Below are positions 1,345-40,361 of a DNA stretch of 64,000 nucleotides, in pieces. The position numbers were made by a program, and so were the translations under genes. The DNA is taken from the NCBI RefSeq assembly GCF_000011085.1, contig NC_006397.1:186001-250000 (forward strand). The letters are read 5' to 3'. Positions within the stretch are counted from its first letter, which is position 1. Every line of letters begins with the position of its first letter. The notes below the pieces were generated by a model that was not told where the DNA came from, searched no databases, and saw nothing but the letters and a program-made list of their open reading frames with translations. Source of the DNA: Haloarcula marismortui ATCC 43049 (GTDB taxonomy: Archaea > Halobacteriota > Halobacteria > Halobacteriales > Haloarculaceae).

Positions 1345-2105
1345 TCTCGAACACCACCGAGGTACGCATCGCGGACATCCTCGTTGTTTGCGATCTCTTC
1401 GGGTGTCCCGCTTGCGAGTTCTTCACCGCGAGTAAGGACGGTAATCCGGTCCGAGACACGCATCACAAGGTCGATATCGTGTTCGATGAGCATCAGCGAC
1501 CGGTCTGAGAGGACGTCATCGATAAGGTTCATTGTGGCCTGTGTTTCCTCGCTACTCATTCCGGCAGTTGGTTCATCAAGCATGATGAGATCAGGGTCTG
1601 TCGCCAGTACGAGACCCAGTTCAAGTCGGCGCTGGTCGCCGTATGCCAGTGCCTCTGCGTGCTCGTCAGCCCGGTCTCGAAGGCCGATCTGCTCCAGTAC
1701 CGTCCCAGTTTGCTCCGTGATCTCGTCGAATCCGTTCTTGTCACGGAACAGTGCCTCGCCGGGGTTGATCTCGTCACTGTGGACGGACTGGGCTGCCAGA
1801 CGCACATTTTCTCGAACGGTGAGGCCGCCGAAAACATTCGTAATCTGGAACGACCGCCCCAGTCCGCGGCCGACCCGTTCGTGTGGCGCGACGTTAGTAA
1901 TATCTTCACCCTTGAACCGAACGACGCCTTCTGACGGCGATAGTGCGCCAGTGATGAGATTAAACGTCGTTGTCTTCCCGGCCCCGTTTGGCCCGATAAC
2001 GCTCCTGAACTCACCATCCGCAACCGACAGTGACACGTCGTCAACAGCGGTGAGCTTGCCGAACCGCTTCGTCAGTCCATCCGTTTCGAGTACAGTCTCA
2101 GTCAT
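1341..2105 (-). CDS. livG: ABC transporter ATPase, LivG type
   Basis: Second ATPase of the HAAT importer, 254 residues. Walker A is 'GPNGAGKTT' near residue 38. The signature region reads 'LAYGDQRRLELG', the variant usual in LivG, and Walker B is 'LIMLDEPTAGM'. The segment 'RSFQITNVFGGLTVRENV' is also typical. It overlaps the permease gene upstream by eight bases and the LivF gene downstream by four, so the whole operon is tightly packed. It should form a heterodimer with the LivF-type protein below the fused permease. Confidence 0.93.
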   Translation of the reverse strand: MTETVLETDGLTKRFGKLTAVDDVSLSVADGEFRSVIGPNGAGKTTTFNLITGALSPSEGVVRFKGEDITNVAPHERVGRGLGRSFQITNVFGGLTVRENVRLAAQSVHSDEINPGEALFRDKNGFDEITEQTGTVLEQIGLRDRADEHAEALAYGDQRRLELGLVLATDPDLIMLDEPTAGMSSEETQATMNLIDDVLSDRSLMLIEHDIDLVMRVSDRITVLTRGEELASGTPEEIANNEDVRDAYLGGVRE

Positions 2106-4122
2106 CGCTTCTCACTTCCGGCTCATCCATATCTACGGACCCATCCGCGTTGTTGGCCGTCTCCAGTCGCTGTGCGACGAGAGACGGAATCGATACGATA
2201 CCGCGTGGGACGAACAGCACGAACAGGATAAACATCGTCCCGATGATAAGCCGCCACTGGTCGGTGTACGACGAGAGGAACTCCTCGGCACCGAAGAAGA
2301 CACCGGAGCCTATCATGGGACCGTACAGTGTCCCCATTCCACCGAACAGCGCAATGACGATGACTTCTCCCGAGTGAATCCAGTTGAGGGTCTGGTCCGG
2401 CGAAACGATGACAGTCGACGGACTGACTGCGAGCAGGCCGCCGGCCAGTCCAGCCATGCCGCCGCTGATGACAAACGCTCGGCGTTTGTATCTGTTGACG
2501 TCGTACCCGATGAACTCCGCCCGTTCTTCGCTTTCCCGGATCGACTGCAAGACGCTGCCGAAGGGCGCGTTCATCATGCGCCGAGCGAACAGGAACGAGA
2601 GTACCGCAATGAGCAGGGCCAGATAGTAGAACACGAACTGTTGGCCGATTTCGTACCCGAGGAGCCCGAACTCGATATTCGAGAGTGACGCCCCGAGGCT
2701 ACCGAGTCCGATGAACGCCTCAAAGCCGAGCAAGCCGTCGCTCCCGCCGGTGAAGTCGAACTTGAACACAGCGCTGTAGAGCAACTCCGCAAACGCCAGC
2801 GTAATCATCGCGAAGTACACGCCGGACACCCGGATAGAGAGGCTGCCGACGATCCAGGCCAGGATAGCACAGAGGAGAATCGCCCCGAGTAACACGACAA
2901 AAACCGACTGCGAGTAGTGCAGCATGACGAGCGCAGCGGTGTATGCGCCGACGCCGTAGAACATCGTGTGGCCGAGCGGGACCAGTCCGGCATAGCCCAT
3001 CACGATATCCAGACTCAGTGCGAAGATGGCCCAGATGAGGATCTCGTTGAGGACGACAAGGTAGTACTGATTGCCCATGAGCAGAATCGCGACTGGGGCG
3101 AGTGCAAGCGCGACAACAGCGACACCGCCGAGCCGTACCCGTGTGCTGTCTGCCAGTATCCCGCCGTACCCGCCGACGAGAATCTCGCCTTCGCCGTCTG
3201 ACTCTTCACCTCGCGTTCCGAACAGTCCTTGCGGTTTCACGAGCAACACCGCAATCATAAGCAGGTACACGGTCAACCCCTCCAGATTGGGGACGGTCAG
3301 CGTTGTGTCACCAAACGTGGCCAAGACAGTCCCACTGTAGGCTCGCATCAGCGTCTGGACGACACCGACGAGCAACCCACCGAAGACGGCCCCTCTGAAG
3401 CTACCGAGCCCACCGAGGACGACCACAACGAATGCCGGAATAATGACGCTGTTCCCCATGCCGGTGTTCACGTTCTGGTAGCCGCCAAGGACAATCCCGG
3501 CGACGGCGGCGAGCGCCGCACCGACACCGAAGACCAGCGTGTAGTACTGGTCGATGTCAATGCCGACGTTCCGAACCATTTCGCGGTCCTGCGACCCGGC
3601 ACGGATGATCATCCCGTACTTTGTCCGGTTCAGCAGGTACCACGTCACTACCGCGAGCAACGCTGCGAAAACGATCATGAAATAATTATACACAGACACC
3701 TGGACACCCAGTATGGATATTGGCTGGCTCAGGTACTCCGGGACAGCTAGCTGCCGTTGCTGTGTCCCCCAGATAAGACGGATCGCGTCATTGATGACGA
3801 GTACAAGTCCGAACGTCAGGAGAATATGATACAGCGGGTCGCGGCCATACAGCGGCCGGACAGTTGTTCGCTCGATGGCGGCACCGATGAGACCGACGAC
3901 GACCGGTGCAACCACTATCGCGATCCAGAACCCGGTCCCCGCACCGAACGGCGCAATGATGCTCAGAGCGAAATACGCACCGAGTGCGAACAGTTCGCCA
4001 TGGGAGAAGTTGATCACGTCCATGACGCCGAAGATGACTGACAGTCCGGCGGCTAGCAGGACATACACCATCCCCAGGGTGAGGCCATTCAGCAGTTGTT
4101 CGATGAAGTCGGCAGCAACCAT
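2098..4122 (-). CDS. Fused LivH-LivM permease of a HAAT ABC importer
   Basis: A 674-residue membrane protein that joins the two permease subunits usually made separately. Residues 1 to about 300 are LivH-like ('LTLGMVYVLLAAGLSVIFGV', 'VVLGGLGSFRGAVFGGLLVG'). Residues from about 325 are LivM-like ('LSLDIVMGYAGLVPLGHTMF', 'FGGMGTLYGPMIGSG'). A hydrophilic linker containing 'GTRGEESDGEGEI' lies between them. Each half has the coupling segment expected to contact one ATPase. The gene starts eight bases after the lipoprotein gene ends and overlaps the next gene. No stop codon or frame change is visible at the junction, so the fusion is read through as one protein. Confidence 0.9.
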   Translation of the reverse strand: MVAADFIEQLLNGLTLGMVYVLLAAGLSVIFGVMDVINFSHGELFALGAYFALSIIAPFGAGTGFWIAIVVAPVVVGLIGAAIERTTVRPLYGRDPLYHILLTFGLVLVINDAIRLIWGTQQRQLAVPEYLSQPISILGVQVSVYNYFMIVFAALLAVVTWYLLNRTKYGMIIRAGSQDREMVRNVGIDIDQYYTLVFGVGAALAAVAGIVLGGYQNVNTGMGNSVIIPAFVVVVLGGLGSFRGAVFGGLLVGVVQTLMRAYSGTVLATFGDTTLTVPNLEGLTVYLLMIAVLLVKPQGLFGTRGEESDGEGEILVGGYGGILADSTRVRLGGVAVVALALAPVAILLMGNQYYLVVLNEILIWAIFALSLDIVMGYAGLVPLGHTMFYGVGAYTAALVMLHYSQSVFVVLLGAILLCAILAWIVGSLSIRVSGVYFAMITLAFAELLYSAVFKFDFTGGSDGLLGFEAFIGLGSLGASLSNIEFGLLGYEIGQQFVFYYLALLIAVLSFLFARRMMNAPFGSVLQSIRESEERAEFIGYDVNRYKRRAFVISGGMAGLAGGLLAVSPSTVIVSPDQTLNWIHSGEVIVIALFGGMGTLYGPMIGSGVFFGAEEFLSSYTDQWRLIIGTMFILFVLFVPRGIVSIPSLVAQRLETANNADGSVDMDEPEVRSDD

Positions 4123-5507: not shown

Positions 5508-8357
5508 CTAGCTGGTGCTGTCGTCCTGTCTGTACAGCCACGCAAGCACAGTCCCGAGTACCGCGGTGACCCCAGTGAGTGTGGTAAAGCCGGGCCCACT
5601 GGCGTCCGTCCCGGTGTTTGCCTCCGTCGCTGTGTTTGTGCTCTCTGTTTCTTCGGTAGCTGTCGGGCCGCTCGCCACAGTATTCTCGTCTGTCTCAGTG
5701 CCGTCACTCGTCGGCGTGTCACCGATAGCAGCACCAGCTGTATTTGCTGGCCTCGACAGCGTTCGGGTCTCGGCTGTGGCGGACTCGATATCTGCGTCGG
5801 CGAACAACAACTGCTTGTACTCGAAATTCTCGAACATCGCCAGCTGGTCGTCGTAATGCTCGCCAGTAGTGCCGTCCGAAGCGACGTAGCCGTCGTTTCC
5901 GGGCGGGAGGATGTTCTCTGCCTTCGGGTCGTCGCTGAGCCGGACAACGTGATTCTCAGTCCCGCGGTTCAGCAGCGCCGTGTTCCCCGCGGACGTGACG
6001 CCGATAGGCATCCCGAACAGCGCGAGGTTATCGAACTCGTGCAGGGCCGCCTCACGCCGCCAGGTCGCCGGCTCACCGTCGTATTGCTCGGCGAGTTCGC
6101 TCACGGCGGTTCGGAACGCGCTGATTAGCGCGTCCGTGATATCTCCATCGGCGTACTCGGCCTGTGTCGCCAGTGCTGTCTCCGCCGGGTTGAGGACCCG
6201 CATCAGGGTGCCGCGACCGTAGTCGTAGCTAAGGAAGTACGATGCTGGCCCGTATGCGCTCCCGAACGTCTCGCTGAAAACCTCCTCCAGGATGTACGGA
6301 AACGTCGCATCCCAGATGGTGTAGCCAGCAGAGTGTCGGCCTTCGTTGTCTTCGCCGTCGGCCTGCGCGAAGTGGTCCCACGAGGCCAGTTCGTCGCGTG
6401 CTTGCTGTTCGGTATTAGAGAGGTCTGCGTCTGCAAGCGCGTCGAGCAGATGGTCTCTGTACCGAATCGAACGCAGGTCGGTGAAAGAGATGTCGTAGAT
6501 AACGGTCTTCAGGAAGTCATAATCGACTGTCCCCTCCTTATCTAACCGCTGCTCAAGCAGATTGATGATCCGTTGCACGCGGTGGTCGGTCGACCATGAA
6601 TAGCTCAGGTCACCGTTGTTCCACGCGGGCGCAGGTTTGTTGTTCCACTGTGCCGAGTACCCCGGATTGGGATTGATCGCGTAGGGGACATCACCGTCAG
6701 CCGCACGGAGGTAGTCCGCCGACGTGAGTTCGTATTGTGTTCCATCGGCTGGCAACCGAGTGTCCCAGTCGACTGCTTCGCTATCCGGGTACCGACCCAG
6801 ATGGACATACGCGATGTCACCATCCTTGTCGGCCCACATGAAGTTCAGCGCATAGTCACAGCGCTGTGCTGACTCCCGGAACTCCTCGGCGTCCGTCGCG
6901 AACTGACACTCATAGAAGGCTCGCCAGCAGTTCATGTGCCGACCGGCGTATGACTTCGTCTGCGCCAGTGCTTCGCCGTTGTCGGGGTCCCACTGGGTCA
7001 CAACACCGTGGCGTGTGAACCGCTCTGTATACGTTACGTCCTCGCCATCGGCGACAGTGATTGTCTGCTCGGCCGTTTCAACCTCATACTCCTCACCACG
7101 GAAGGTGTACGTGTCCGGGCCGGACGAGTTGGTCGTGATCGATTCCGTAAACATCTGGATGCAGTTGTCGATCCCGGCAGTCGAGGTCATTGCCCCGTTG
7201 CGATTGTGTCCGAACATAATGAACGGATACCCCGTAACGGTGACACCGGCGACGTCGAAGTCCGGGCCATGCAGGCTTGCCTCGTACATTATCGAGGGAG
7301 TGTTGAACCCCATCTGGGGCCCACCCATCAGTAGCGCATCGCCACTGGCCGTGATATCACCCTGAACAGCGAGGGCGTTGCTGCCGTACTTGATCGGGAG
7401 GCCAAGACTGTCGAGTCCGGACGCAAGCGTTCGCATCCGCTCTATCTCTCCGTCGTGCATCCCTTCGGCATCAGATGGCGGCGTGTAGTCCCCGCCAGTC
7501 ACCAGGTTGCTCGGTGTCGCAGACGGACCGCTGGCCCCGCGCGTCACCCTGTCTGTCTGCTGTCCTCCGGCCACATTGGGTGTCGGCCCTGCGCCCACGT
7601 CAGTATAGGGTGGGGCATAGATATCCGATGGCTGGACCGTCGAGGTCGGACAGCCAAGGTCGTCGCCTCACTGCAGGTCCTCGAACAACTCCAGCGCACG
7701 TTGTTCGCTCCCGGTTTCCTGCGTGAGTGCGTCGAGAACAGTCGCACTGAGCGTTTCAAGCTGGAAGCCGCTGAAATACGCCATACTGGCGACGAACATC
7801 CCGGCGGCGTCTGTCGTGGTAAATTCCTCAGGCTCGAACCCGTGTTCCTGAAACGCCTGATGGAACTCCAGTTCCTCGCTCTCACGAACTTCGGTAATGT
7901 ACCGGTTGATACCGTCGGTAAACGCCTGCAGGACCGCTCGCTGGTCCGCTGTCAACTGTTCAGCAGCCTGCTCGTCGAGTGATGGCTCGCCGGCGGTGTT
8001 GTGCCGCGCCTCGATATCGAACTGGACCCAGTCGGTGTCCCCGTCACCTGAACCGAGGACCGCCGCGACAGTCCCGTGATAGTACCGCCGGTACAGTTCT
8101 AGCTGATAGAGCCGGTCTGCCGCGGTTGCATATCCGAACCCGTAGAACACCGGCGCGCGGCTGTCAGCGTCGCGGGCGTAGATGTGTGGGACGCCGTAGT
8201 CGTCTCGTCGTATCGTGACCGTGGCATCGTCTTCCTGCGCGTACGCCAACTCCGTCTCAACGGCTCCGATACCGGTCATGCCGGTAACCGCCGCGCCTGT
8301 CTTCAGAAGCGTTCGTCGTGAAAGGTGCTGCCACGACTGCTGGTGCTGTGCTGACAT
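5508..8357 (-). pseudogene. Penicillin-acylase-family enzyme with one in-frame TGA
   Basis: An Ntn-hydrolase of the penicillin G acylase family, which cleaves acyl side chains (often phenylacetyl) from amides. The N-terminal part (7668-8357) starts with a twin-arginine signal ('LSRRTLLKTGAAVTG') and has the family motif 'RDDYGVPHIYARD'. Translation stops at TGA, 7668-7670. The same frame continues with 'GDDLGCPTSTVQPSDIYAPP' and reaches the self-processing site 'YGSNALAVQGD' about 95 residues later, whose serine would become the beta-chain nucleophile. No frame change is needed, so one substitution explains the break; a TGG tryptophan codon is the simplest ancestor. The C-terminus has a Thr/Glu-rich stretch, then 'GPGFTTLTGVTAVLG' and a basic end, resembling a PGF-CTERM anchor. 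A sequencing error is possible. Confidence 0.85.
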
Positions 8358-8377
8358 CCCGTAGTTGACAGTCTGGA

Positions 8378-8392
8378 TATTTAATAAATATT
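8378..8392 (-). promoter_or_regulatory. TATA element of the acylase gene
   Basis: The minus strand reads AATATTTATTAAATA, centred 27-28 bases before the ATG at 8357. This predicts a leaderless message and fixes the start ahead of the twin-arginine signal. The promoter looks intact even though the gene is interrupted. Confidence 0.6.
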
Positions 8393-8564
8393 TGGGGATA
8401 TGTCTGGCCACACCGACAGCATGGCTCTCCAGTTCTGGTATCAACGTCGGTCACTCCCCGTGGCGCGCTGGACAAATTCGCCCAGCGGCTGCCATTCTCC
8501 CAATGACCGTATCAAGATACCCTAACAGCGGGTAGCTGAGACGATAGCTGTCGGCAACTGCCAA

Positions 8565-9851
8565 TCAATTGCGATGGTCGTAGACCCGCTGAATCTTGCC
8601 GACTTCGGTTCGCTCGATAGTCCCGGGGTTGACGAGGTTAAGCTGGTCCGGAGTGAACGAAAGCACGGATTGCAGGCGAGACAGAACGTCGTCACGGAGT
8701 TCGCTGTGGTCTTTGCTGGACCCTTCGGCGCGCTCAACAGTGAGTTCCATGACGTCGAGATTGTCCTCCTCGTAGAGGTCGATCCGGTAGTATGGCGCGA
8801 CGCCGTTGATGTCAAGCACTGCGTGTTCGATTTCGCTTGGATAGAGGTTCACGCCGCGGACAATGAGAAGGTCGTCGGTTCGACCGGTGACGTTGTCCAT
8901 CCGTACCATTGTCCGCCCACACGCACACTCGTCGTAATTTAGCGTCGTCAGGTCACCCGTTCGGTATCGTATCACCGGCTGTGCCTGCTTGGTAAGCGTC
9001 GTGAGAACGAGTTCGCCCTCTTTGCCCGCCTCGAGTGGCTCTTTCGTGCGTGAATCGATAACCTCCGGGTAGAAGTGGTCTTCCCAGATGTGGAGTCCGT
9101 CCTGCGCTTCGTGACATTCCGCAGCCACACCGGGGCCGATAATCTCTGAGAGCCCGTAGTTGTTGATCCCGGTGGCGTTCAGTGCGGTCTCGATTTCCAT
9201 TCGCATCGGCTCTGTACACGTCTCAGCGCCGTAGGAGACAACCGAAATCGGAAGCGCCTGCGGGTCATATCCCATCTCCTCGGCCGTTTCGGCGAGGTAC
9301 AGTGCGTATGACGGGGTACAGGCCAGCACGTCGGTGCCAAGATCAGCGGCGAGTTCGACCTGCCGCTGCGTGCCGCCACTGCTGGTCGGAACGACGGTCG
9401 CTCCGAGTTCTTCAGCGCCCTCGTGAAAACCCATCCCACCGGTAAACAAGCCATAGCCGTAGGCGTTCTGAACCGTATCGTCGGGCTCCACACCAGCAGC
9501 CGACAGCGACCGCGCCATCGTCTTGCCCCACAACTCCAGATCTGCATCGACGTAGGAGACGATCTTGGGTTTCCCGGTCGTGCCAGAGGAGGCATGAAAA
9601 CGGCTGACCTCGTCGTCATCGACGGCGAAGAGTCCGTCTGGATATTCGTCTTCGAAGTCCTCCTTGGTCGTCATCGGGAGCGAACTGATGTCGGCAATCC
9701 CGTCAATATCCGTCGGAGAGACCCCTGCGGCATCGAGCCGGTCTCGGTAAAATGGCACATTTTCGTACACGTAGTTCACGATTGACCGGAGCCGCTCGCT
9801 CTGCACGCTCCCAAGCTCGGCGCGGTCGAGACACTCGTTACTGTGGTACAT
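8565..9851 (-). CDS. paaK: Phenylacetate-CoA ligase
   Basis: AMP-forming ligase of 428 residues that activates phenylacetate to phenylacetyl-CoA in the cytoplasm. The ATP loop is 'SSGTTGKPKIVSY' near residue 88. 'YGLSEIIGPGV' and 'DHFYPEVID' follow mid-protein, and the C-terminal lid begins at 'GRTDDLLIVRGVNLYPSEIE'. All are PaaK signatures. It is closely similar along its whole length to the ligase at 17593-18882, so the two are recent paralogues. A Cys pair in 'ECACGRTMVRM' is also shared. It stands alone, downstream of the divergent VOC gene and upstream of the acylase. Specificity for phenylacetate is inferred from family and from the epoxidase genes in the window. Confidence 0.9.
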   Translation of the reverse strand: MYHSNECLDRAELGSVQSERLRSIVNYVYENVPFYRDRLDAAGVSPTDIDGIADISSLPMTTKEDFEDEYPDGLFAVDDDEVSRFHASSGTTGKPKIVSYVDADLELWGKTMARSLSAAGVEPDDTVQNAYGYGLFTGGMGFHEGAEELGATVVPTSSGGTQRQVELAADLGTDVLACTPSYALYLAETAEEMGYDPQALPISVVSYGAETCTEPMRMEIETALNATGINNYGLSEIIGPGVAAECHEAQDGLHIWEDHFYPEVIDSRTKEPLEAGKEGELVLTTLTKQAQPVIRYRTGDLTTLNYDECACGRTMVRMDNVTGRTDDLLIVRGVNLYPSEIEHAVLDINGVAPYYRIDLYEEDNLDVMELTVERAEGSSKDHSELRDDVLSRLQSVLSFTPDQLNLVNPGTIERTEVGKIQRVYDHRN

Positions 9852-10033
9852 ACGCAGCCGCTTCGACTAGCACCGGGAAAAAGTTCGGGGACCACCAGCG
9901 CAGATGACGGTTGATACGGTGACCGCACAAAACAGGACGGCTGAAGGCTGGTTCGCAGTTCAGTAGCGCTTTCTGCCACTGCGAGGGCGGCCACGGAGAC
10001 AAACGTAATCACGGCCTCTACTCCCGACCCGAG

Positions 10034-10041
10034 CATATAAT
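10034..10041 (+). promoter_or_regulatory. TATA element of the VOC gene
   Basis: CATATAAT lies 25-32 bases before the ATG at 10066, predicting a leaderless or very short-leader transcript. Confidence 0.55.
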
Positions 10042-10065
10042 GGGGAGCCTGACGCAGTCCTTGCC

Positions 10066-10536
10066 ATGTCTCAGGAGACCCCGATCCGTGTCGACCACAT
10101 CGGAATCGCTGTCGAGGACATCGGCGACGCTGAACCGTTCCTGTTCGCACTCGGCTGTCGGAAGCTCATCGAAGAGTCCGTCGAGGGGCGGTTTCGCTGG
10201 GCACAGTACGATTTCGGTCGGGAGGCGTCGCGGCTAGAACTCATCGCACCGGAGGCATCGGACACGTTCCTTACGTCGTATCTCGACAACCACGGTCCGG
10301 GCCTACACCACGTCACGCTCGAAGTGGCCGCTGTCGACGCAGTGAAAGCGGTACTGGAGCGCAACGGATACAGCGTCATTGAGTACCGCGAGTATCAGGA
10401 CTGGACAGAGGCATTTGTGCCACCATCGAACCCGACCGGGGCGCTGTTTCAATTGTTCGAGTATCACGATAGCTACGACGCTGACCGGCCACCTGCCGGC
10501 AAACTCTACGTCGATGGAAGCCGGCTTGATGGGTGA
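10066..10536 (+). CDS. VOC-superfamily protein (methylmalonyl-CoA-epimerase-like)
   Basis: A 156-residue vicinal-oxygen-chelate protein with two beta-alpha-beta-beta-beta modules. The first begins 'RVDHIGIAVEDIGDAEPF' and the second contains 'GPGLHHVTLEV'. Metal-ligand positions expected in this fold are met by His in 'VDHIGIAV', Glu in 'RLELIAPE', His in 'LHHVTLEV' and Glu in 'LFQLFEYHD'. The pattern is nearest to methylmalonyl-CoA epimerase, but glyoxalase or a ring-cleaving dioxygenase relative cannot be excluded. It is transcribed away from the ligase gene and ends about 60 bases from the EthD gene on the other strand. The substrate is unknown; the setting suggests an acyl-CoA or aromatic intermediate. 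Confidence 0.75.
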   Translation: MSQETPIRVDHIGIAVEDIGDAEPFLFALGCRKLIEESVEGRFRWAQYDFGREASRLELIAPEASDTFLTSYLDNHGPGLHHVTLEVAAVDAVKAVLERNGYSVIEYREYQDWTEAFVPPSNPTGALFQLFEYHDSYDADRPPAGKLYVDGSRLDG

Positions 10537-10594
10537 TATCTGCAGAAGGTCGCTCAGGGAAAACGCATCGGTCGGCAAAACAGGTGGAGCGCTA

Positions 10595-10921
10595 TCAGTC
10601 GTCTCTTTCGTCGAGCTGGACCGTTTCCTCGACGATAAGCCGGGGGCCGGCCTCCAGATCGATAAACTCGGCTGCGTCGGCCTGCACTGTTTCGGCAAGG
10701 TCTGAATCAAACGCGTCGCTGAGTGCATCCATGTCCTCGAAATACAGCTCAAGCACGCCGTCGTAGGCCGCACGCTCCGGGTCTGTTGGCACGGATGTCA
10801 CGTAGCGCTGCAACCCCGGCAGATCCTTCGCTAGCTCCGAGTGGTCGCCTTGCCATCGGTCGGCGAACTCCTCGTGAGTGTAGCCATCTCTCCGGACGAG
10901 CAAATCAACGATTTTTGTCAT
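10595..10921 (-). CDS. EthD-domain protein
   Basis: A 108-residue protein with the dimeric alpha-beta-barrel EthD pattern: 'MTKIVDLLVRRDGYTHEEFA' followed by 'WQGDHSELAKDLPGLQRYVT', where His and the 'PGL' turn are typical. EthD-type proteins often accompany oxygenases or aromatic-degradation enzymes as small auxiliary or isomerase-like proteins. A TATA-like GGTAAAAGCC lies about 27 bases before its ATG, so the message should be leaderless. A 17-base inverted repeat sits just upstream of that box, between this gene and the divergent IclR regulator, suggesting direct control by that regulator. The biochemical role is unknown. Confidence 0.7.
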   Translation of the reverse strand: MTKIVDLLVRRDGYTHEEFADRWQGDHSELAKDLPGLQRYVTSVPTDPERAAYDGVLELYFEDMDALSDAFDSDLAETVQADAAEFIDLEAGPRLIVEETVQLDERDD

Positions 10922-10953
10922 GCGTGCGCCATGTCGTCACGGATTGGCTTTTA

Positions 10954-10970
10954 CCTGCCGATCTGGCAGG
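10954..10970. promoter_or_regulatory. Inverted repeat, possible IclR operator
   Basis: CCTGCC and GGCAGG form perfect 6-base arms around a GATCT spacer. The repeat lies in the 112-base gap between the divergent EthD and IclR genes, directly upstream of the EthD TATA-like box. Placement and symmetry suit a dimeric repressor or activator. Confidence 0.45.
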
Positions 10971-11033
10971 GCCACCACTGATTCAAGCTACTCGAACAAA
11001 ACACTTGTAAGTCGATTAGTCATGTGTGTACGT

Positions 11034-11804
11034 ATGGCAATCCCGCCCGCTGTCAACAGGCCGGTCGGAACGATCGAGAGAGCAATCGAGATCATGGAGT
11101 ATCTCAAGGAACACGACACGGCCACGGTGTCTGAAATGACAGCCCACCTCGACTGTGCGAAGAGTACAACACACAGATACATGAAGACACTCGCGGCCAA
11201 CAGTCTCCTCGTCGAGGACGATAACGAGTATCAGCTCGGGATCCGCTTTCTGGACTACGGCGAAGTGGCACGGAACAAATACCGGCTCTACGACGAGGCG
11301 AAGCCAAGAGTCGACGAACTCGCGGAAGAGACCGAGGAAAAAATCTGGTGTGCCGTTGAAGAACACGGCCGGAGCGTCCACATCTACGGCGCTCAGGGGA
11401 AACACTCGGTGCAGACGTACGCCCGAGTTGGCCATCGGAACTATCTCCACCAGCACGCCGCGGGGAAGGCCATACTGGCACACCTTCCAGACAACCAGAT
11501 CACGAAGACCATCGACAGGCATGGCTTGCCTGGCCGGACGCCACAGACGATCACCGACCGGGACGAACTCTGGGAGGAAATCGAGGCCATCCGTGACCGC
11601 GGATACGCGTTCAACTTTCAGGAGTCGGTGGAGGGACTGCACGCGGTCGGGGCCCCGATCACGGACGAGAACGACATTGCCATCGGGGCGATCAGTGTCT
11701 CTGGCCCAGCAAGCCGGCTTGAAGGCCCCATTCTTCGGGACGAACTGCCGACGCTGCTACTGGGCGTTGTCAACGAGATCGGGATAAACATGGCCCATCC
11801 TTGA
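11034..11804 (+). CDS. IclR-family transcription regulator
   Basis: A complete regulator of about 256 residues. The N-terminal winged helix-turn-helix covers roughly residues 10-70 ('IERAIEIMEYLKEHDTATVS', 'CAKSTTHRYMKTL'). The ligand domain follows, with 'HQHAAGKAILAHLP' and 'SVEGLHAVGAPI'. The ATG at 11034 is preferred because it sits just before the conserved helix; another ATG 12 bases upstream is possible. The C-terminal part closely matches the IclR fragment at the window start. It is divergent from the EthD gene, with an inverted repeat between them. IclR proteins in such settings usually respond to aromatic acids or CoA thioesters. The ligand here is not shown. Confidence 0.88.
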   Translation: MAIPPAVNRPVGTIERAIEIMEYLKEHDTATVSEMTAHLDCAKSTTHRYMKTLAANSLLVEDDNEYQLGIRFLDYGEVARNKYRLYDEAKPRVDELAEETEEKIWCAVEEHGRSVHIYGAQGKHSVQTYARVGHRNYLHQHAAGKAILAHLPDNQITKTIDRHGLPGRTPQTITDRDELWEEIEAIRDRGYAFNFQESVEGLHAVGAPITDENDIAIGAISVSGPASRLEGPILRDELPTLLLGVVNEIGINMAHP

Positions 11805-11909
11805 GGCTACCAGCGTAGTTCCAGCGGGGCAACGAGCAGTTTTCGAGTTGTACTTCGCTGCGTGTGGCTGCGGTCGAACGATGGACCCCGTTTTGGGGAC
11901 GAGATGCGC

Positions 11910-12722
11910 TCACTCGCTGGCCCACTCTGGATCTCTGTCTTCGAGGAACGCGTCGATACCTTCGTCCTTGTCACCGGTTGCGAACAGTTGAGCGAACAGT
12001 TCGGCTTCGTACTCAATGCCGGCTTCGAGGTCCATTCGGGAACTGGCACGAACGGCTTTCTTCGCTAATTCGAGCGCCGCAGGGCTTTTTTCTGCAATCG
12101 ACGACGCGATGTCGTAGACACGCTCATCGAAGGAGTCGTCATCGTGAACTTCGTCGACGAGGCCGATATCGACAGCCTCCGACGCGTCGATAAGTTCGCC
12201 AGTGAGGATAAGCCGCATTGCGTGGCCCTCGCCGACCAGGCGCGGCAGTCGCTGTGTGCCGCCACCACCAGGCATGATGCCAAGGTTGATTTCCGGCTGC
12301 CCAAATTTCGCATCCGTATGCGCGATCCGGATATCAGCCGCCTGAATCAGCTCACAGCCGCCGCCGAGGGCGTGCCCGTTGATACGGGCGATGACCGGCA
12401 TCGGGCACTCGTCGACGTACTCGTAGACGCGAGGTCGCTTGCTCGCCTCCCGTTGCTCTAGCATATCCCGCTCGCGGAGTTCCGTTACGTCCGCACCCGC
12501 AACGAATGCGCCGGTGTCTGCCGCGCCAGTCAACACGACAGCACGAACGTCGCTGTCCGGGATTGCGTCGAAGACCTGCTTGAACTCCGACCGCAACTGG
12601 GTGTTGAGCGCGTTTCGAGCCTCCGGGCGGTGTAATTCGACGGTAGCGACGTTCTCCACGCGGTCCCCGACGCGCACCGAGACCGTTTCACAGTCCGCCG
12701 CAATGTCAGCGAGGTCCGTCAT
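11910..12722 (-). CDS. Enoyl-CoA hydratase/isomerase (PaaF-like)
   Basis: A crotonase-fold enzyme of about 270 residues. The oxyanion-hole motifs are 'GAFVAGADVTELRE' and 'RINGHALGGGCELI'. The first catalytic Glu is seen in 'FGQPEINLGIMPGGGGTQRL'. By eye the second catalytic Glu of classic hydratases, which precedes the 'LTG' turn, is replaced by Arg in 'HAMRLILTGE', so full hydratase chemistry is not certain. Starting at 12722 gives a four-base ATGA overlap with the dehydrogenase gene upstream. With that gene it likely handles the dehydroadipyl-CoA steps of phenylacetate breakdown or general beta-oxidation. Confidence 0.85.
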   Translation of the reverse strand: MTDLADIAADCETVSVRVGDRVENVATVELHRPEARNALNTQLRSEFKQVFDAIPDSDVRAVVLTGAADTGAFVAGADVTELRERDMLEQREASKRPRVYEYVDECPMPVIARINGHALGGGCELIQAADIRIAHTDAKFGQPEINLGIMPGGGGTQRLPRLVGEGHAMRLILTGELIDASEAVDIGLVDEVHDDDSFDERVYDIASSIAEKSPAALELAKKAVRASSRMDLEAGIEYEAELFAQLFATGDKDEGIDAFLEDRDPEWASE

Positions 12723-13606
12723 GCGTCCCCCCACTCGCCGCTGGTGCCAACGATGTCACCGTCCTCCCAGACGTAGAACCCCTCGCCGGATTTCTTGCCG
12801 AGTTTGCCCGCACGGACCTTCCGTTTCAGGATCTGTGGCGGACGGAACCGTTCACCGAGTTCGTCACGCAGGTATTCGAGGATGTCGAGTCGGACATCAA
12901 GACCGACGACGTCGCCGAGTTCGATAGGTCCCATCGGGTGATTGTAGCCGAGTTCCATCGCGGTGTCGATGTCCTGCGGTGTTGCAACGCCTTCCTGCAC
13001 CATCCGCATCGCTTCGACTCCCAGCGAGACGCCAAGGCGGGAGGAGGCAAAGCCCGGTGCATCGGCCACCTCCACCGGTGTCTTGTCGATCCCGTTCACG
13101 AACTCCCGGGCACGCGCAATCGTTTCGGCACTCGTCTGTTCCGCGACGACAATCTCGACGAGTGCCATAATGTGCACCGGATTGAAAAAGTGAAGGCCAA
13201 TAGCTCGCTCGGGATAGTCAAGGACGCTCGCTATCTCAGTCAGTGACAGCGAAGAAGTGTTTGAAGCGATAAGCGTCGCCGGGTCGACGTGGGATTCGAC
13301 CGCAGTGAGCGTCTCGTGTTTGATCGCCATCTCTTCGGGGACTGCTTCCACGACGAGGTCTGCCCCAGTCACGGCCTCTTCTAGCGAGGTCGTCCCTTTG
13401 AGGCGGTCTATCGTTGCCTCGGCCGTCGATTCGGTCACTTTCTCCCGGGCGATACCCTCCTCCAGATTCGACTCGATGGCGGTCAGGCCGTCGTCGACGA
13501 TATCCGCCTCGATATCACGGAGAGAGACGTCGTGACCGGCCATTGCAGATACTTGAGCGATACCGTGGCCCATGGTACCGGCGCCTAGGATAGCTACGTG
13601 CATCAT
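12719..13606 (-). CDS. 3-hydroxyacyl-CoA dehydrogenase (PaaH-like)
   Basis: A 295-residue NAD-dependent enzyme that oxidises 3-hydroxyacyl-CoA to 3-ketoacyl-CoA. The Rossmann motif is 'ILGAGTMGHGIAQVSAMAGH' at the N-terminus. 'ASNTSSLSLTEIA' and 'GLHFFNPVHIMALVEIV', with the catalytic His, follow near residues 115-150. The C-terminal helical domain has 'GFASSRLGVSLGVEAMRM'. Start is at 13606 or at the next Met (13603). It is coupled to the enoyl-CoA hydratase and divergent from a thiolase gene, so the trio covers the last beta-oxidation-like steps. In phenylacetate breakdown it would act on 3-hydroxyadipyl-CoA; that specificity is inferred from the cluster. Confidence 0.9.
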   Translation of the reverse strand: MMHVAILGAGTMGHGIAQVSAMAGHDVSLRDIEADIVDDGLTAIESNLEEGIAREKVTESTAEATIDRLKGTTSLEEAVTGADLVVEAVPEEMAIKHETLTAVESHVDPATLIASNTSSLSLTEIASVLDYPERAIGLHFFNPVHIMALVEIVVAEQTSAETIARAREFVNGIDKTPVEVADAPGFASSRLGVSLGVEAMRMVQEGVATPQDIDTAMELGYNHPMGPIELGDVVGLDVRLDILEYLRDELGERFRPPQILKRKVRAGKLGKKSGEGFYVWEDGDIVGTSGEWGDA

Positions 13607-13668
13607 TTCTCAGCACAGTAGCGAGGGGTAAAAACGTTGCCTGCGTCCCGCTGCCAGTGTGGCCTGCA

Positions 13669-13675
13669 TTTAATA
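13669..13675 (+). promoter_or_regulatory. TATA element of the thiolase gene
   Basis: TTTAATA is centred about 31 bases before the ATG at 13703. On the opposite strand, near 13628-13635, GTTTTTAC plays the same part for the divergent dehydrogenase gene. Confidence 0.5.
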
Positions 13676-13702
13676 CGGCGGCCGCGATATGAACCGGTGA
13701 GG

Positions 13703-14848
13703 ATGACTGCTTCCGACTCGCAAGCCGTTGTTGTCGATGCCGTACGAACGCCACAGGTACCGAAGGATGGCGCATTGGCTGGGACACATCCCGAAGACCT
13801 CGTCTCCACTGTGCTTACTGCACTTGTTGACCGGACCGGTGTCCCGGCCGTCGAGTGGGATGACTTCCGGCTCGGGTGTGCAAACCAGGAGGGCGAGCAG
13901 GGCCGAAACCTCGCCCGGCAGTCGATACTCGCCGGCGGGTTTCCCGAGACAGTGCCCGGGGCGACAACGACCCGCCTGTGTGGCTCTTCGCTGACGACGC
14001 TTGTCGACGCCGCTCGCGCCATCGAGGCGGGCGACGGGGCGGTGTATCCGGTGGCCGGTGTCGAACACATGAGCACCGTCCCTTTCTCCGACTGGCTGCA
14101 TCCCGCTATCGAACAGCGGTACGACCCCGACAGGCTTCCGATGGGACAGACGGCCGAAACCATCGCACGGACCCACGATATCAGCCGAAAAGCCCAGGAC
14201 GAGTTCGCGTTGCGTTCACACGAGCGGGCGGTCGCTGCCATGGAAAGCGGTCGGTTCGATGCAGAGACCGTGCCAGTCCACACCGACGAGACAGCGGTAG
14301 AGAGCGATAAAACACCGCGAGCAGACACGTCAGTCGAGCAGTTGAGCGAACTCCCGACAGTGTTCCGTGACGACGAGGCAGCGACAGTCACGCCGGGGAA
14401 CGCATCACCGCTGACCGACGGTGCGGCCGGGATGCTCGTCACTTCGGCGGCGTACGCGGACCAGCACGGTCTCGATGTCCTCGGCCGGATCGAGACGCGG
14501 TCTGTCGCTGGTGTCGACCCGCTGGTCATGGGACGGGGACCGATTCCGGCCACGCGTGCTGCACTGGACAATGCCGGCCTGACAATCGACGATATCGATC
14601 TCGTGGAACTCAACGAGGCGTTCGCGGCCCAGAGTCTCCACTGCAAGCGCGAGCTGGGGATTCCGACTGAGCGGCTCAACGTCAACGGTGGGGCTATCGC
14701 GTTAGGCCATCCGCTTGGCTGTTCGGGGGCACGAATCACGACGACATTGTTACACGAGATGCAACGGCAGGACGCGACCCACGGACTGGCGACGATGTGT
14801 GTCGGTTTCGGTCAGGGCATCGCGGTTGTGTTCGAGAATCCCTGCTAG
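13703..14848 (+). CDS. Acetyl-CoA acyltransferase (thiolase, PaaJ-like)
   Basis: A thiolase of about 381 residues. The nucleophilic Cys is in 'TTTRLCGSSLTTLVDAARAI', the catalytic His in 'NGGAIALGHPLGCSGARI' and the second Cys in 'ATMCVGFGQGIAVVFE'. 'ELNEAFAAQSLHCKREL' is also typical. The ATG at 13703 is preferred to one 66 bases upstream because it follows the TATA-like box at leaderless distance and precedes the conserved 'VVVDAVRTPQ'. With the hydratase and dehydrogenase opposite, it would cleave 3-oxoadipyl-CoA to succinyl-CoA and acetyl-CoA in phenylacetate breakdown. A general beta-oxidation role remains possible. Confidence 0.9.
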   Translation: MTASDSQAVVVDAVRTPQVPKDGALAGTHPEDLVSTVLTALVDRTGVPAVEWDDFRLGCANQEGEQGRNLARQSILAGGFPETVPGATTTRLCGSSLTTLVDAARAIEAGDGAVYPVAGVEHMSTVPFSDWLHPAIEQRYDPDRLPMGQTAETIARTHDISRKAQDEFALRSHERAVAAMESGRFDAETVPVHTDETAVESDKTPRADTSVEQLSELPTVFRDDEAATVTPGNASPLTDGAAGMLVTSAAYADQHGLDVLGRIETRSVAGVDPLVMGRGPIPATRAALDNAGLTIDDIDLVELNEAFAAQSLHCKRELGIPTERLNVNGGAIALGHPLGCSGARITTTLLHEMQRQDATHGLATMCVGFGQGIAVVFENPC

Positions 14849-14854
14849 TGCCGG

Positions 14855-16291
14855 CTACCGGCGCTGGCTGGCGACCTGTGCTTTGAAGCCGTATCTGATG
14901 ACCCCCTCCTGCGTGTAGATGCGTCGCGTCGTCAGCACGACAGGTGTGCCTATCGTGACTTCGTCCGTCGCCTGAAGCACCTGTGCAGGGACACTCACGG
15001 TCTGCTCGCCTGATTGACTATGGAGCGCGATGATAGCACTATCGAACTGGCCGCTTTTCGACTGCTGGGCGACGAACTCCGGTGGCGCACCGCCCTGTCG
15101 GATAGTCGTTACTGCCTCGACTGTCCCTGTCCCGGGCAGTTCGACAGCCTCGAAATCGCTGGTGCGCTCGTGACAGTCCGTACAGGCCCCGGTCGGCGGG
15201 AAGTTCAACGCCTCACACGCGGAACACCGACCGGCGACAAGCCGGTGGCGTTGCGGAATCGTCCGCTGCCAGGACGGGACACTGACGTACGCTCCGCCAC
15301 CTTCGGGTTCGTCGCGCGTAATCTCGCCTCGCCGCCTGAGGTACGCGGCGTAGGACAGGGAGACAGCACCGTCCAGCGCAGTGTTGACCGGAACGGGACC
15401 AGTGGCGACGAAGAGCGTCGCACTCGCGCCGCTTCCGTACGCAGCAATCAACACACGTTCAGCGCCATCCGCAAACGCTGTCGCCGCCCCGAGAAATGCG
15501 CTTGCTGCGCCGGTGTCCCCGAGCGAACTAACTGTGTCAGCGGCGGCGATAGTCGCTGCGTCAACCCCGAGCGCACCTGTTGCCCGATACGGGAGCTTTC
15601 CGTCCGGAGACTGGACCGCTGCTGCATCGACTGTCTCCATCGGCACGTCCAGTCTGTCCGCCGCACTGCCGAGTGTGGTCGTGAACGCCTCGCGGTCGTA
15701 CTGCGTCACGCCCAGACCGGTCGTCCGGTCGTCCCCGCCCGTTCTGAAACGCGTTCCGGGGTAGGCCTCCGTGTGTGACGCTCGCTCAATGACGGTTCCG
15801 GGACCGTCATCGTCGACAACGAGCGCGACGCTCCCGGCACCGGCGGCGTGCTCGACCTCGCTGTCAGGGTCGCCCCGCGGACAGTCACTGATGATGACGA
15901 GGCCGATGTCCTCCCCGAACGGCCCGCCGTCCATGGTTGCGTCCAGTGCTTGCGCACCGGCGTGCGTGGAGCCGGTTATCGTCTGCGTCTTTGCATCGTC
16001 GGGGACGTTGAGAATACTGCAGAGTCTCGCTGCAAGGTCCTCTTCGGCCATCGGCGGTGTCGTCGTCGCAAAGGCCAGATGCGCAACGGCCGCGCCGGAC
16101 GCGTCAGCTGCAGTGAGCGCACGGCGGGCCGCTTCGACACCCATCGTGACTGCGTCTTCGTCGGCATCGGGGACCGCCTTCTCATCAACCCCCGCCGCAT
16201 CGAACCGACCCCAGGCGGCTTCGAACTCTTCAGCGTCGATCCGCAGGCGAGGTGCGTACGCACCGATGGCCGCAAGCCCTGCGGCAGTCAT
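14855..16291 (-). CDS. HMG-CoA-synthase-like protein fused to a DUF35 domain
   Basis: A 478-residue two-part protein. Residues 1 to about 340 have the HMG-CoA-synthase/thiolase-like fold ('LAAIGAYAPRLRIDAEEFEA', 'HLAFATTTPPMAEEDLAARL'). Where archaeal HMG-CoA synthases carry the acyl-binding Cys ('ACKAGTAA'), this one reads 'TGSTHAGAQAL'; my by-eye alignment puts Thr109 there, so condensation chemistry is doubtful. Residues from about 345 form a DUF35 module: a zinc ribbon 'CSACEALNFPPTGACTDC' and then an OB fold. DUF35 proteins bridge thiolase and HMG-CoA synthase in archaea. The gene overlaps the SCP2-type thiolase gene by four bases, so the two products probably form a complex. Substrate unknown. 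Confidence 0.8.
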   Translation of the reverse strand: MTAAGLAAIGAYAPRLRIDAEEFEAAWGRFDAAGVDEKAVPDADEDAVTMGVEAARRALTAADASGAAVAHLAFATTTPPMAEEDLAARLCSILNVPDDAKTQTITGSTHAGAQALDATMDGGPFGEDIGLVIISDCPRGDPDSEVEHAAGAGSVALVVDDDGPGTVIERASHTEAYPGTRFRTGGDDRTTGLGVTQYDREAFTTTLGSAADRLDVPMETVDAAAVQSPDGKLPYRATGALGVDAATIAAADTVSSLGDTGAASAFLGAATAFADGAERVLIAAYGSGASATLFVATGPVPVNTALDGAVSLSYAAYLRRRGEITRDEPEGGGAYVSVPSWQRTIPQRHRLVAGRCSACEALNFPPTGACTDCHERTSDFEAVELPGTGTVEAVTTIRQGGAPPEFVAQQSKSGQFDSAIIALHSQSGEQTVSVPAQVLQATDEVTIGTPVVLTTRRIYTQEGVIRYGFKAQVASQRR

Positions 16292-17460
16292 CGTGCGGCC
16301 TCCCGTTCGAGGATGTGGACAACTGCGCTGCCGCCGCTCCCACCCACGTTGTGAGTCAGCCCGTACTTCGGGGCCGCTAGCTGCCGGTCCGCAGCGCCGC
16401 CGGTGAGTTGTTTGAACGCCTCGACAAGCTGTCCGGCACCGGTTGCGCCGATAGGGTGACCCTTTGATTTCAGCCCGCCGGAGAGATTGACCGGCATTGC
16501 TCCGTCAGATTCGGTCGTTCCCGCTTCAAGTAACTGTGGGGCCTCGCCGCGGTCACAGAACCCGAGGTCCTCGTATGCAAGCAGTTCGGCGATCGTGAAG
16601 CAATCGTGGACCTCTGCGAAATCGAGGTCGTCAGGGCCAACCCCGGCACGGTCGTAGGCTGTGTCTGCGGCCATTTCCGAGGCAGAAATCGAAGTGTAGC
16701 TGTTTCGCTGGAAGAGACCGACCCGGTCGCTGGCCGCGCCGACCCCGGCGATCCGGACCGGGTCGTCGGTGTACTGCCCGACGACGTCCTCACTCGCGAT
16801 GAGCGCGACCGCTGCGCCGTCAGAGGTCGGACAGCAGTGATAGAGGTTCAAGGGGTCTGCGACGACCGGTGCGCCGACGGCGTCTTCGAGGGAGCATTCG
16901 AAGCCCAGGTGGGCCTTCGGGTTCTTTGCGCCGTTCCGATGGTTCTTGACCGCCACCATCGAGAGGTGCTCCTCGCTGGCCTCGTACTCCCGTAGATACG
17001 CACTTGCCATCTGTGCGTAAACGCCAGAGAAGGTCGTCCCAGTCAGCCGTTCCCACTCTGTTTCACCGGAAACACCAAGCCAGTACTTCGTCACATCGCT
17101 GCTCATGTCTGTCATGACTTCGACGCCGCCAGCCAGCGCTACGTCGGCCATCCCGCTTTTGACTGCCTGCACTGCCTGTCGGACAGCGTAGCCCGACGCG
17201 GCGCAGGCGTTTTCAACGCGCACGCTGGGGACGCCGTGCAGCCCAGCGTGTTCAGTCGCTGCCGGTCCAGAGAGACCGAGCTGTCGACCGCCCACGCCGA
17301 GTGAGCCGACGACCGCTTCGTCTATCGCGTTCGTATCGATACCATGGTCGACACTGTCGATGGCTTCGCTGACTGCGTGGTCGAACAGTGATCTGTAGCT
17401 CTCTTCGGGCATCGAGCCAAACGGCGTTTGCCCTGCGCCGATGAGATACGCATCCCGCAT
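16288..17460 (-). CDS. SCP2-type thiolase family protein
   Basis: About 390 residues, of the thiolase branch that works with DUF35 partners. The nucleophile Cys is in 'VENACAASGYAVRQAVQAVK'. The His of 'EVHDCFTIAELL' and the motif 'GGLKSKGHPIGATGAGQLVE' complete the active site. The start at 17460 precedes 'MRDAYLIGAGQTPFG' and lies about 27 bases after a TATA-like CTATTTTTC, so the message is probably leaderless; an upstream in-frame start adds unrelated sequence. It is coupled to the HMG-CoA-synthase-like/DUF35 gene. It may be an acetoacetyl-CoA-type thiolase or a carbon-carbon lyase such as the steroid aldolases of this group. Confidence 0.85.
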   Translation of the reverse strand: MRDAYLIGAGQTPFGSMPEESYRSLFDHAVSEAIDSVDHGIDTNAIDEAVVGSLGVGGRQLGLSGPAATEHAGLHGVPSVRVENACAASGYAVRQAVQAVKSGMADVALAGGVEVMTDMSSDVTKYWLGVSGETEWERLTGTTFSGVYAQMASAYLREYEASEEHLSMVAVKNHRNGAKNPKAHLGFECSLEDAVGAPVVADPLNLYHCCPTSDGAAVALIASEDVVGQYTDDPVRIAGVGAASDRVGLFQRNSYTSISASEMAADTAYDRAGVGPDDLDFAEVHDCFTIAELLAYEDLGFCDRGEAPQLLEAGTTESDGAMPVNLSGGLKSKGHPIGATGAGQLVEAFKQLTGGAADRQLAAPKYGLTHNVGGSGGSAVVHILEREAAR

Positions 17461-17559
17461 ACATGGAACTCTGAGGGTACTGAAAAATAGCTTTGCATCG
17501 TTTGCTGACAGCCTTAGACCAAGCACGCAACTGGCGGTGCAGTGACCAATCCCAAACCA

Positions 17560-17566
17560 TTTTATC
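17560..17566 (+). promoter_or_regulatory. TATA element of the second ligase gene
   Basis: TTTTATC is centred 29-30 bases before the ATG at 17593. This supports that start over a TTG codon six bases earlier and predicts a leaderless transcript. Confidence 0.55.
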
Positions 17567-17592
17567 ATTAACATTCAATTCTATCATTGAAG

Positions 17593-18882
17593 ATGGTGTA
17601 CAAGCCACTGGAGGCGTCTGACCGGACAGAGCTGCGTGCGTTGCAATCTGACCGATTGCAAAGAATTGTCACACACGCCCACGAGAACGTCCCGTTTTAC
17701 CGGGAGAAACTCGATGCGGCAGGTGTCTCGCCCGAAGACATCCAGAGTATCGACGACATCACGAAACTGCCGATGACGACGAAAGAGGATTTCCGCGACG
17801 AGTACCCAGATGGACTCTTCGCCGTAGACGACGAGGAGGTCGCCCGCATCCACGCGTCGTCCGGGACGACCGGGAAGCCGAAAATCGTCTCGTACACGGA
17901 TGACGACCTCGACACCTGGAGTGAAGTTGTCGCGCGTTCGCTGGCTGCGAGCGGCACTGAAGCGGGCGATACCGTCCAGAACGCCTACGGGTACGGGTTG
18001 TTCACTGGCGGACTTGGTATCCACTACGGAACTGAGGAGTTGGGGGCCTCAGTTGTTCCTATCGGAAGCGGCCAGACACAGCGACAGGTCGAGTTGATGA
18101 CCGACCTAGAAAGCGATGTTTTCACATGCACCCCATCGTATGCACTCTACCTCGCCGAAACGGCCGAAGAGATGGGCCACGACCCCAGAGATCTGCCGAT
18201 CTCGACGATAATCTTCGGCGCTGAGCCGTGTACCGACCCGATGCGGGAGGAAATCGAAGAGCGGCTGGGCGTTGATGGCATCGATATTTACGGACTCTCG
18301 GAGATCATCGGTCCTGGGGTCTCGTGTGAATGCCACGAAGCGAAGGACGGACTCCACATCTGGGAGGACCACTTCTACCCGGAAGTCATCGACCCACACA
18401 CGAAAGAACCGGTCGAGGAAGGCGAAGAAGGTGAACTCGTTCTGACAACACTCACCAAGGAAGCGTTGCCGGTCTTCCGGTACCGAACTGGCGACCTCAC
18501 GACACTGAACTACGACGAGTGTGCGTGCGGACGGACGATGGTACGGATGGACAACGTCACCGGCCGGACCGACGACCTCCTCATCGTTCGGGGCGTGAAT
18601 CTCTATCCCAGCGAAATCGAACACGCTGTATTGGATATCGACGGCGTTGCTCCACATTACCGGATCGACCTCTACAAAGAGGACAACCTCGACATCCTGG
18701 AACTCACCATCGAACGAACTGCAGAGCAGGGGCCGGGTGACAAAGCGCTGGAAGACGAAATCATCGAGCGGCTAGAAAACGTACTCGCGTTCACCCCGGA
18801 CGAACTCGAACTCGTTGCGCCCGGCAGTATCGAACGAACGCAGGTCGGCAAGGTAAAACGCGTCTACGACCACCGTGACTGA
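17593..18882 (+). CDS. paaK: Phenylacetate-CoA ligase, second copy
   Basis: AMP-forming ligase of 429 residues, closely similar end to end to the enzyme at 8565-9851. They share 'SSGTTGKPKIVSY', 'NAYGYGLFTGG', 'LSEIIGPGV' and 'GRTDDLLIVRGVNLYPSEIE'. Differences cluster in the N-terminal 20 residues and the last 80, where this copy has 'TAEQGPGDKALEDEIIERLE'. It is divergent from the SCP2-type thiolase and followed at once by the convergent PaaI thioesterase. Two ligases may differ in substrate (for example phenylacetate and a hydroxylated form) or in regulation, since their promoter surroundings differ. Confidence 0.9.
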   Translation: MVYKPLEASDRTELRALQSDRLQRIVTHAHENVPFYREKLDAAGVSPEDIQSIDDITKLPMTTKEDFRDEYPDGLFAVDDEEVARIHASSGTTGKPKIVSYTDDDLDTWSEVVARSLAASGTEAGDTVQNAYGYGLFTGGLGIHYGTEELGASVVPIGSGQTQRQVELMTDLESDVFTCTPSYALYLAETAEEMGHDPRDLPISTIIFGAEPCTDPMREEIEERLGVDGIDIYGLSEIIGPGVSCECHEAKDGLHIWEDHFYPEVIDPHTKEPVEEGEEGELVLTTLTKEALPVFRYRTGDLTTLNYDECACGRTMVRMDNVTGRTDDLLIVRGVNLYPSEIEHAVLDIDGVAPHYRIDLYKEDNLDILELTIERTAEQGPGDKALEDEIIERLENVLAFTPDELELVAPGSIERTQVGKVKRVYDHRD

Positions 18883-18885
18883 CTG

Positions 18886-19281
18886 TCAGGGCCGGTAGAC
18901 TCGTCCACGAAACGTCGCGATGCGCTCGCCATCCTGTGCAGTCACCGTTACCTCGTACTCTGCGGTGCTGCCTGCGAGATGTGTTTCTTCAGCGATCGCA
19001 GACAGCGTCTCACCGGTGTCGACGGCGTCTAAATACGAGATGTTCGTCTCCAGTGCGACCGCTGCCTCGCCATGAGAGTTCGACGCCGCGGCGAACGCCG
19101 CATCTGCAAGTGAGTAGATCGCTCCGCCATGCGGTGTCCCATGAAAGTTCAGCAGGTCCTCGGTAATCGTCAGTTCAGTCTGGGCGTACCCCGAATCAAG
19201 TTCGACGACATCGATACCAAGGGTTTCGCAGTACGCATCCGATTCGATACGCTCTCTGACTTCATCGGCGACACCGGACAT
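18886..19281 (-). CDS. paaI: PaaI-type acyl-CoA thioesterase
   Basis: A 131-residue hotdog-fold protein. The segment 'NFHGTPHGGAIYSLADAAFA' holds the 'HGG' and Asp features of PaaI thioesterases. PaaI hydrolyses stalled ring-hydroxylated phenylacetyl-CoA or dead-end thioesters and so frees CoA. The start is supported by a TATA-like stretch centred about 27 bases upstream. It is divergent from the MaoC gene and convergent with the ligase gene, three bases apart. Confidence 0.88.
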   Translation of the reverse strand: MSGVADEVRERIESDAYCETLGIDVVELDSGYAQTELTITEDLLNFHGTPHGGAIYSLADAAFAAASNSHGEAAVALETNISYLDAVDTGETLSAIAEETHLAGSTAEYEVTVTAQDGERIATFRGRVYRP

Positions 19282-19302
19282 ACGGGTCGTGGTTCCATCA
19301 CT

Positions 19303-19358
19303 AATAATAAATATATACCGGTCACTGCTGCTGTCAGCGGAGCGTAAAAATATAAATG
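19303..19358. promoter_or_regulatory. Divergent leaderless promoters of paaI and the MaoC gene
   Basis: Minus strand: an AT-rich box at 19303-19312, 27 bases from the thioesterase ATG. Plus strand: AAAAATATAAATG at 19346-19358, centred 27-28 bases before the MaoC ATG at 19380. The two boxes share a 99-base gap, so one regulator could control both. Confidence 0.55.
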
Positions 19359-19379
19359 GCTGCTATTAGATAAAAAAAT

Positions 19380-19838
19380 ATGGCATACAGCTACGAGCCA
19401 CACCACTTCGAGGACTTCGAAGAAGGACAGGAGTTTATCAGTGTCGGCCGGACCGTTACCGAGTCCGATTTCGTCATGCACTCTGCGCTGTCGGGAGACT
19501 GGACAGAGCTGCATACGAACAAGGAATACGCGGAAGAACAGGAGTTCGGTGAGCGGATCGCACACGGTCCAATGACGTTCGTGCAGGCGACCGGCTTCGT
19601 CTACCGGACCGGGATCGTCGAGCGGACCGCATTCGCGTTCCTCGGGATGAACTACATGGACCTCCCAAACCCGGTCCACATCGGCGATACACTCCAGCTG
19701 GAGATTGTCGTTGACAACACCAAAGAAGTCGGGCGCGACGACGCCGGGCTGGTCGTCCTCGACACTGAAATGGAAAACCAGGACGGGACCGTCGTCTTCG
19801 AGGGCGACATGAAGTTCCTGATCAAGAAACGCGAGTGA
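19380..19838 (+). CDS. MaoC-family enoyl-CoA hydratase
   Basis: A 152-residue single hotdog hydratase. The active-site pattern is 'SALSGDWTELHTNKEYAEEQ', with the Asp and His typical of R-specific hydratases, followed by 'FGERIAHGPMTFVQATG'. In bacteria PaaZ fuses such a domain, which opens oxepin-CoA, to an aldehyde dehydrogenase. Here a MaoC gene lies just before a separate aldehyde dehydrogenase, next to the epoxidase operon. A split PaaZ is therefore likely but unproven. Confidence 0.85.
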   Translation: MAYSYEPHHFEDFEEGQEFISVGRTVTESDFVMHSALSGDWTELHTNKEYAEEQEFGERIAHGPMTFVQATGFVYRTGIVERTAFAFLGMNYMDLPNPVHIGDTLQLEIVVDNTKEVGRDDAGLVVLDTEMENQDGTVVFEGDMKFLIKKRE

Positions 19839-23499: not shown

Positions 23500-23504
23500 T
23501 GTTC

Positions 23505-40353: not shown

Positions 40354-40361
40354 CGCTCGGT

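Follow-up and report, generated by a model that had tools for sequence, protein, structure and literature searches.

The window analysed here, a stretch of 64,000 nucleotides, belongs to chromosome II of the Dead Sea archaeon Haloarcula marismortui ATCC 43049, evidently in the form of its 2004 assembly, and contains a penicillin-acylase-family gene whose reading frame is broken by a premature stop a quarter of the way along. Two further contigs of the genome match plasmids of this strain at 99.99-100%. Is this gene lost, is the stop an error in the sequence, or is it read through? These were the three causes that a sequence-only reading of the same DNA had offered, and the first, very recent loss, fits best, while a sequencing error is unlikely and read-through finds no support. 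That reading was also right in taking the organism to be a Haloarcula. Our preferred explanation, to which we assign a probability of roughly 0.86, is that a recent, strain-private nonsense mutation has inactivated the only penicillin-amidase-family gene of this genome, in what would be an ordinary case of gene loss.

A penicillin-acylase-family gene cut at codon 230

The minus-strand frame at 5508-8357 comprises 949 codons plus a stop, and its codon 230 is a TGA at 7668-7670 (TCA on the plus strand), in frame both with the ATG at 8357-8355 and with the normal stop that ends at 5508. This is the single in-frame TGA that had been proposed to split a penicillin-acylase gene, and it is seen at that position (Table 1). 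With Trp substituted for the stop, the resulting 949 residues match profile positions 1-674 of the 675 in PF01804 (Penicil_amidase), with an E value of 1.4e-117 and a score of 394.9 bits against a cut-off of 21.3. The parts before and after the stop also match this profile separately (E 7.8e-31 and 6.1e-84, respectively), which agrees with the earlier view that the two sides share one frame and carry family motifs.

Table 1. Features of the interrupted gene and its surroundings, in window coordinates.
Feature	Position	Strand	Basis and remarks
AT-rich promoter-like box	8375..8400	-	Upstream of the ATG; core unchanged
Penicillin-acylase-family gene	5508..8357	-	Broken at codon 230; frame, PF01804, orthologues whole in ATCC 33800 and 11 congeners
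Putative Tat-type signal peptide, residues 1-40 (...SRRTLLKTG...)	8238..8357	-	PF10518 TAT_signal, E 0.0003, slightly below cut-off
Alpha-chain region before the stop, residues 41-229	7671..8237	-	Matches solved alpha chains, residues ~44-244
Premature stop TGA replacing Trp codon TGG, codon 230	7668..7670	-	Sequence; TGG in ATCC 33800, Trp in 12/12 intact orthologues
Codon 234, otherwise invariant, with another change private to the window	7656..7658	-	Orthologue alignment: Pro in 12/12, Leu in window; corresponds to a Pro in the E. coli enzyme
Beta-chain region downstream of the stop, residues 326-865, with Ser326 first, at the nucleophile position	5763..7382	-	Matches beta chains from residue 1, E 3e-86
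C-terminal tail, GPGF plus hydrophobic stretch, PGF-CTERM-like anchor	5508..5630	-	C-terminal part of TIGR04281 matched weakly, E 0.003

The comparison with penicillin G acylases of solved structure (PDB 6nvw/6nvy; 1gk9, 1ai4) reveals a common order of alpha chain, linker and beta chain, the latter starting with Ser in both. Residue 326, a Ser, aligns with residue 1 of the beta chains 6nvy_B and 6nvw_B, so that the distance of 95 residues from the stop to the Ser at the beginning of the beta chain was rightly given. The Trp and Pro of the penicillin G acylase stretch KWLVNPSAPTT align with codons 230 and 234. With the stop at residue 230, solved alpha chains spanning residues ~44-244 and the beta chain starting at 326, the cut therefore falls near the end of the alpha chain, which by the same comparison loses about its last 15-30 residues. 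Penicillin G acylases, however, are intact enzymes, whereas the ATCC 43049 gene is cut and is an acylase by homology only; and, unlike them, the haloarchaeal protein carries a Tat-type signal and a PGF-CTERM-like tail. Among the papers searched, none on a haloarchaeal penicillin acylase was found.

By homology, the intact protein would be an exported Ntn-hydrolase precursor that yields its alpha and beta chains by self-cleavage before Ser326. Translation that ends near the alpha-chain end would leave the beta chain, together with its nucleophile, unmade, and an active enzyme would not be expected. The single precursor of the PF01804 family is whole in 12 of 12 orthologues and cut at codon 230 in ATCC 43049.

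The intact gene is ancestral in Haloarcula

A 696-residue query was searched at E<=0.001 against 32 Haloarcula genomes, the window's own included. Close orthologues were found in 11 other genomes, at 89-95% over the downstream part and each as one open frame; overall, 14 of the 32 genomes gave no match and only 12 have a close orthologue. Two distant matches (L014 and L018), in two other Haloarcula genomes, are each interrupted by one in-frame stop (TAG and TAA).

One relative, ATCC 33800, has been assigned to the same species as ATCC 43049 (PMC12189638). Its orthologue, WP_004966573.1 (KDQ40_RS16925), located on pHsi540 of H. sinaiiensis ATCC 33800 (a strain of H. marismortui), is annotated as a penicillin acylase family protein of 949 residues. 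The two genes have an equal length of 2850 bp, are 99.1% identical and have the same neighbours, namely, paaK and ABC transporter genes; unlike the window gene, that of ATCC 33800 is uninterrupted, with Trp230 (TGG) and Pro234. They differ at 24 codons, 7 of them protein-changing and 17 silent. At codon 230 the sole change is from TGG in ATCC 33800 to TGA in the window. Once polarised by the 11 outgroups, the changes private to the window are R119H, M222L, W230stop and P234L, while three amino-acid-level changes are private to ATCC 33800.

Codon 230 encodes Trp in all 12 intact orthologues (11 congeners plus ATCC 33800), and both Trp230 and Pro234 are invariant across the genus among the orthologues compared. 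Thus, the alignment that had been recommended as a check finds Trp at the site in every close orthologue, and TGG to TGA as the simplest cause is upheld, with TGG seen directly in ATCC 33800. In the relatives, purifying selection acts on the gene, with dN/dS of about 0.07 in both the alpha and beta regions, and the intact state is therefore ancestral. Orthologues with a normal stop and a separate downstream start, which had been named as the observation that would speak against a split gene, were not encountered: every orthologue is one continuous frame, and this rules out a pair of normal genes, the first ending and the second beginning naturally at this place.

Three further observations fit a recent loss. 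First, the core of the AT-rich box upstream of the ATG, AAATATTTATTAAATAT, is identical in ATCC 33800 and in nine of the 11 congeners, with a one-base difference in the other two, in keeping with the suggestion that the promoter is intact. Second, the remainder of the gene, also predicted to be intact, has no frameshift, no other lesion and no private amino-acid change beyond codon 234; an older, decayed pseudogene is ruled out by the lack of other lesions. Third, among 59 ATCC 33800 genes with counterparts in the window, only the acylase gene is interrupted, and no frameshift was found in any of them.

Taken as a nonsense mutation, a G-to-A change would have turned TGG, encoding Trp230, into TGA in ATCC 43049 and given rise to a pseudogene. 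As in other nonsense pseudogenes, the stop is absent from the orthologues, which keep the sense codon. The gene also resembles the ordinary single-lesion pseudogenes of prokaryotic strains, with no notable difference: one strain-private base change, a promoter and remaining gene that are intact, and dispensability in the genus. The latter is apparent from its patchy presence. A PF01804 search of the genome found no second gene, and this, together with the patchy presence and the purifying selection in relatives, indicates that the strain can bear the loss, although the function would go with it.

A sequencing error is unlikely

The closest competitor is that the 2004 genome is in error at this place, through sequencing or assembly, and that the true gene is intact. 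The window genome does match the old (2004) assembly, and a lone single-base lesion in an otherwise undecayed gene is what such an error could look like. However, when the PacBio plasmids pHMA155 and pHMA411 were compared with the window's genome, the 2004 and 2019 assemblies differed by 0 substitutions and only 8 one-base indels over 259,455 bases, all on replicons other than that of the acylase locus. Errors of substitution are thereby limited to about 1.2e-5 per base (95% bound), or ~0.03 in the acylase gene, few of which would be stops. The authors of the PacBio assembly of ATCC 43049 likewise describe differences from the older one that are mainly single-base indels and IS (PMC6606915). 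Their records are CP039132-CP039138 and their reads SRR8914802, SRR8914803, SRR8985819 and SRR8985820 (PMC6606915); the acylase locus should be carried by NZ_CP039136 or NZ_CP039138, and locus-tag order makes CP039136 the probable one.

An error-rich assembly would also show more replacements. In 37 genes polarised with two outgroups, 129 changes on the window branch are silent, 45 are replacements and 1 is nonsense; on the ATCC 33800 branch, 113 are silent and 39 are replacements. The ratios of private non-silent to silent changes, 46:129 with the stop included versus 39:113, are similar, and therefore an excess of error-like changes is absent here, as it is from the comparison of the two assemblies.

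One observation in favour of an error is that three private amino-acid-altering differences, at 7657, 7668 and 7694 (codons 234, 230 and 222), bunch within about 38 bases around the stop. The probability of such clustering is about 0.002 under uniform placement, a post hoc figure, and codon 222 varies in the relatives. Relaxed selection after the stop, chance or a bad patch of reads could each explain it.

Continued use of the interrupted gene is very unlikely

It is very unlikely that ATCC 43049 still makes use of the gene, whether through UGA read-through at a low level or as an acylase naturally divided into two polypeptides. The lack of private amino-acid changes after codon 234 is compatible with such use, and equally expected of a recent loss.

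Read-through of the TGA, with Trp inserted by near-cognate decoding or with selenocysteine, would yield some full-length enzyme, in line with a frame that is open on both sides and a downstream part free of decay; but any recent lesion would show the same absence of decay. The stop is missing from every relative, so that conserved recoding does not apply to the site, and orthologues have Trp throughout, rather than the conserved UGA or Cys that marks a selenoprotein. The selenocysteine system is reported to be absent from H. marismortui, although the species has an orphan selD, which could be taken in favour of this option (PMC2276186). Together with this report, our searches of the genome for tRNA-Sec and SelB, which gave nothing above the cut-off, rule out selenocysteine. 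According to a review of recoding in archaea, the stop-codon read-through demonstrated in this domain consists of selenocysteine and pyrrolysine incorporation (PMC8211752). The RNA fold after the TGA is like that of shuffled sequence (z -0.9), with no SECIS-like structure downstream. A UCA anticodon was not seen among the tRNAs found, in an inventory that is incomplete and from which the Trp tRNA itself was not recovered. An Rfam tRNA match of 102 bases (L083, G000:C8:984958-985059) is left uncalled by ARAGORN, with or without introns. Lastly, TGA is the terminal stop of 38 of 59 neighbouring genes. A genome-wide reassignment of TGA is ruled out, this codon being the commonest terminal stop nearby and no other window gene having an in-frame stop. 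We consider read-through of this stop to be highly improbable.

We give as little credence to a split enzyme, in which an alpha chain ending at the TGA would assemble with a beta part started from an internal GTG or ATG. The stop does lie near the natural end of the alpha chain, the mature form in this family has two chains, there is a solved structure of a permuted penicillin G acylase (7reo), and in-frame GTG and ATG codons occur at positions 254-308. Yet these codons correspond to plain conserved residues in all relatives shown, and by eye a Shine-Dalgarno-like motif is not evident before them. The beta part would have no Tat (export) signal, and the alpha chain would miss Trp230 and the conserved Pro234 region.

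Neighbourhood and likely role of the intact protein

Positions 8565-24446 of the window hold a phenylacetate degradation cluster adjoining the acylase gene and a permease-type ABC transporter operon. In ATCC 33800 this neighbourhood is annotated as paaA, C, D, E and I, two paaK genes and the ABC transporter, and it is collinear in the window. From its homology and its signals, namely, the Tat-type match below cut-off and the weak PGF-CTERM-like tail, the intact protein is predicted to be an exported acylase. Given the neighbouring phenylacetate genes, it is reasonable to suggest that its substrates are perhaps phenylacetyl-amides, from which phenylacetate would be released for the adjacent pathway.

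Elsewhere in the window, about 6.7 kb at 39410-46114 are missing from the same place in ATCC 33800, reflecting either an insertion in the window or a deletion there; by eye, this segment contains an HTH regulator, a heavy-metal P-type ATPase, a 412-residue membrane protein and an ABC1/UbiB-like kinase. Three tracts (2098-4122, 12719-14848 and 30960-32744) are 95.8-96.8% identical to ATCC 33800, versus a background of about 99.3%, which suggests recombination with diverged Haloarcula.

Implications

The acylase lesion is ordinary in kind, and its importance is limited: it corrects an annotation in a much-used archaeal type strain. The approach, in which two assemblies of one strain are compared together with one sister strain, also illustrates how an error in an old assembly can be told from a real loss. 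Work on the acylase is better done in ATCC 33800 or in another Haloarcula; a natural null may be available in ATCC 43049.
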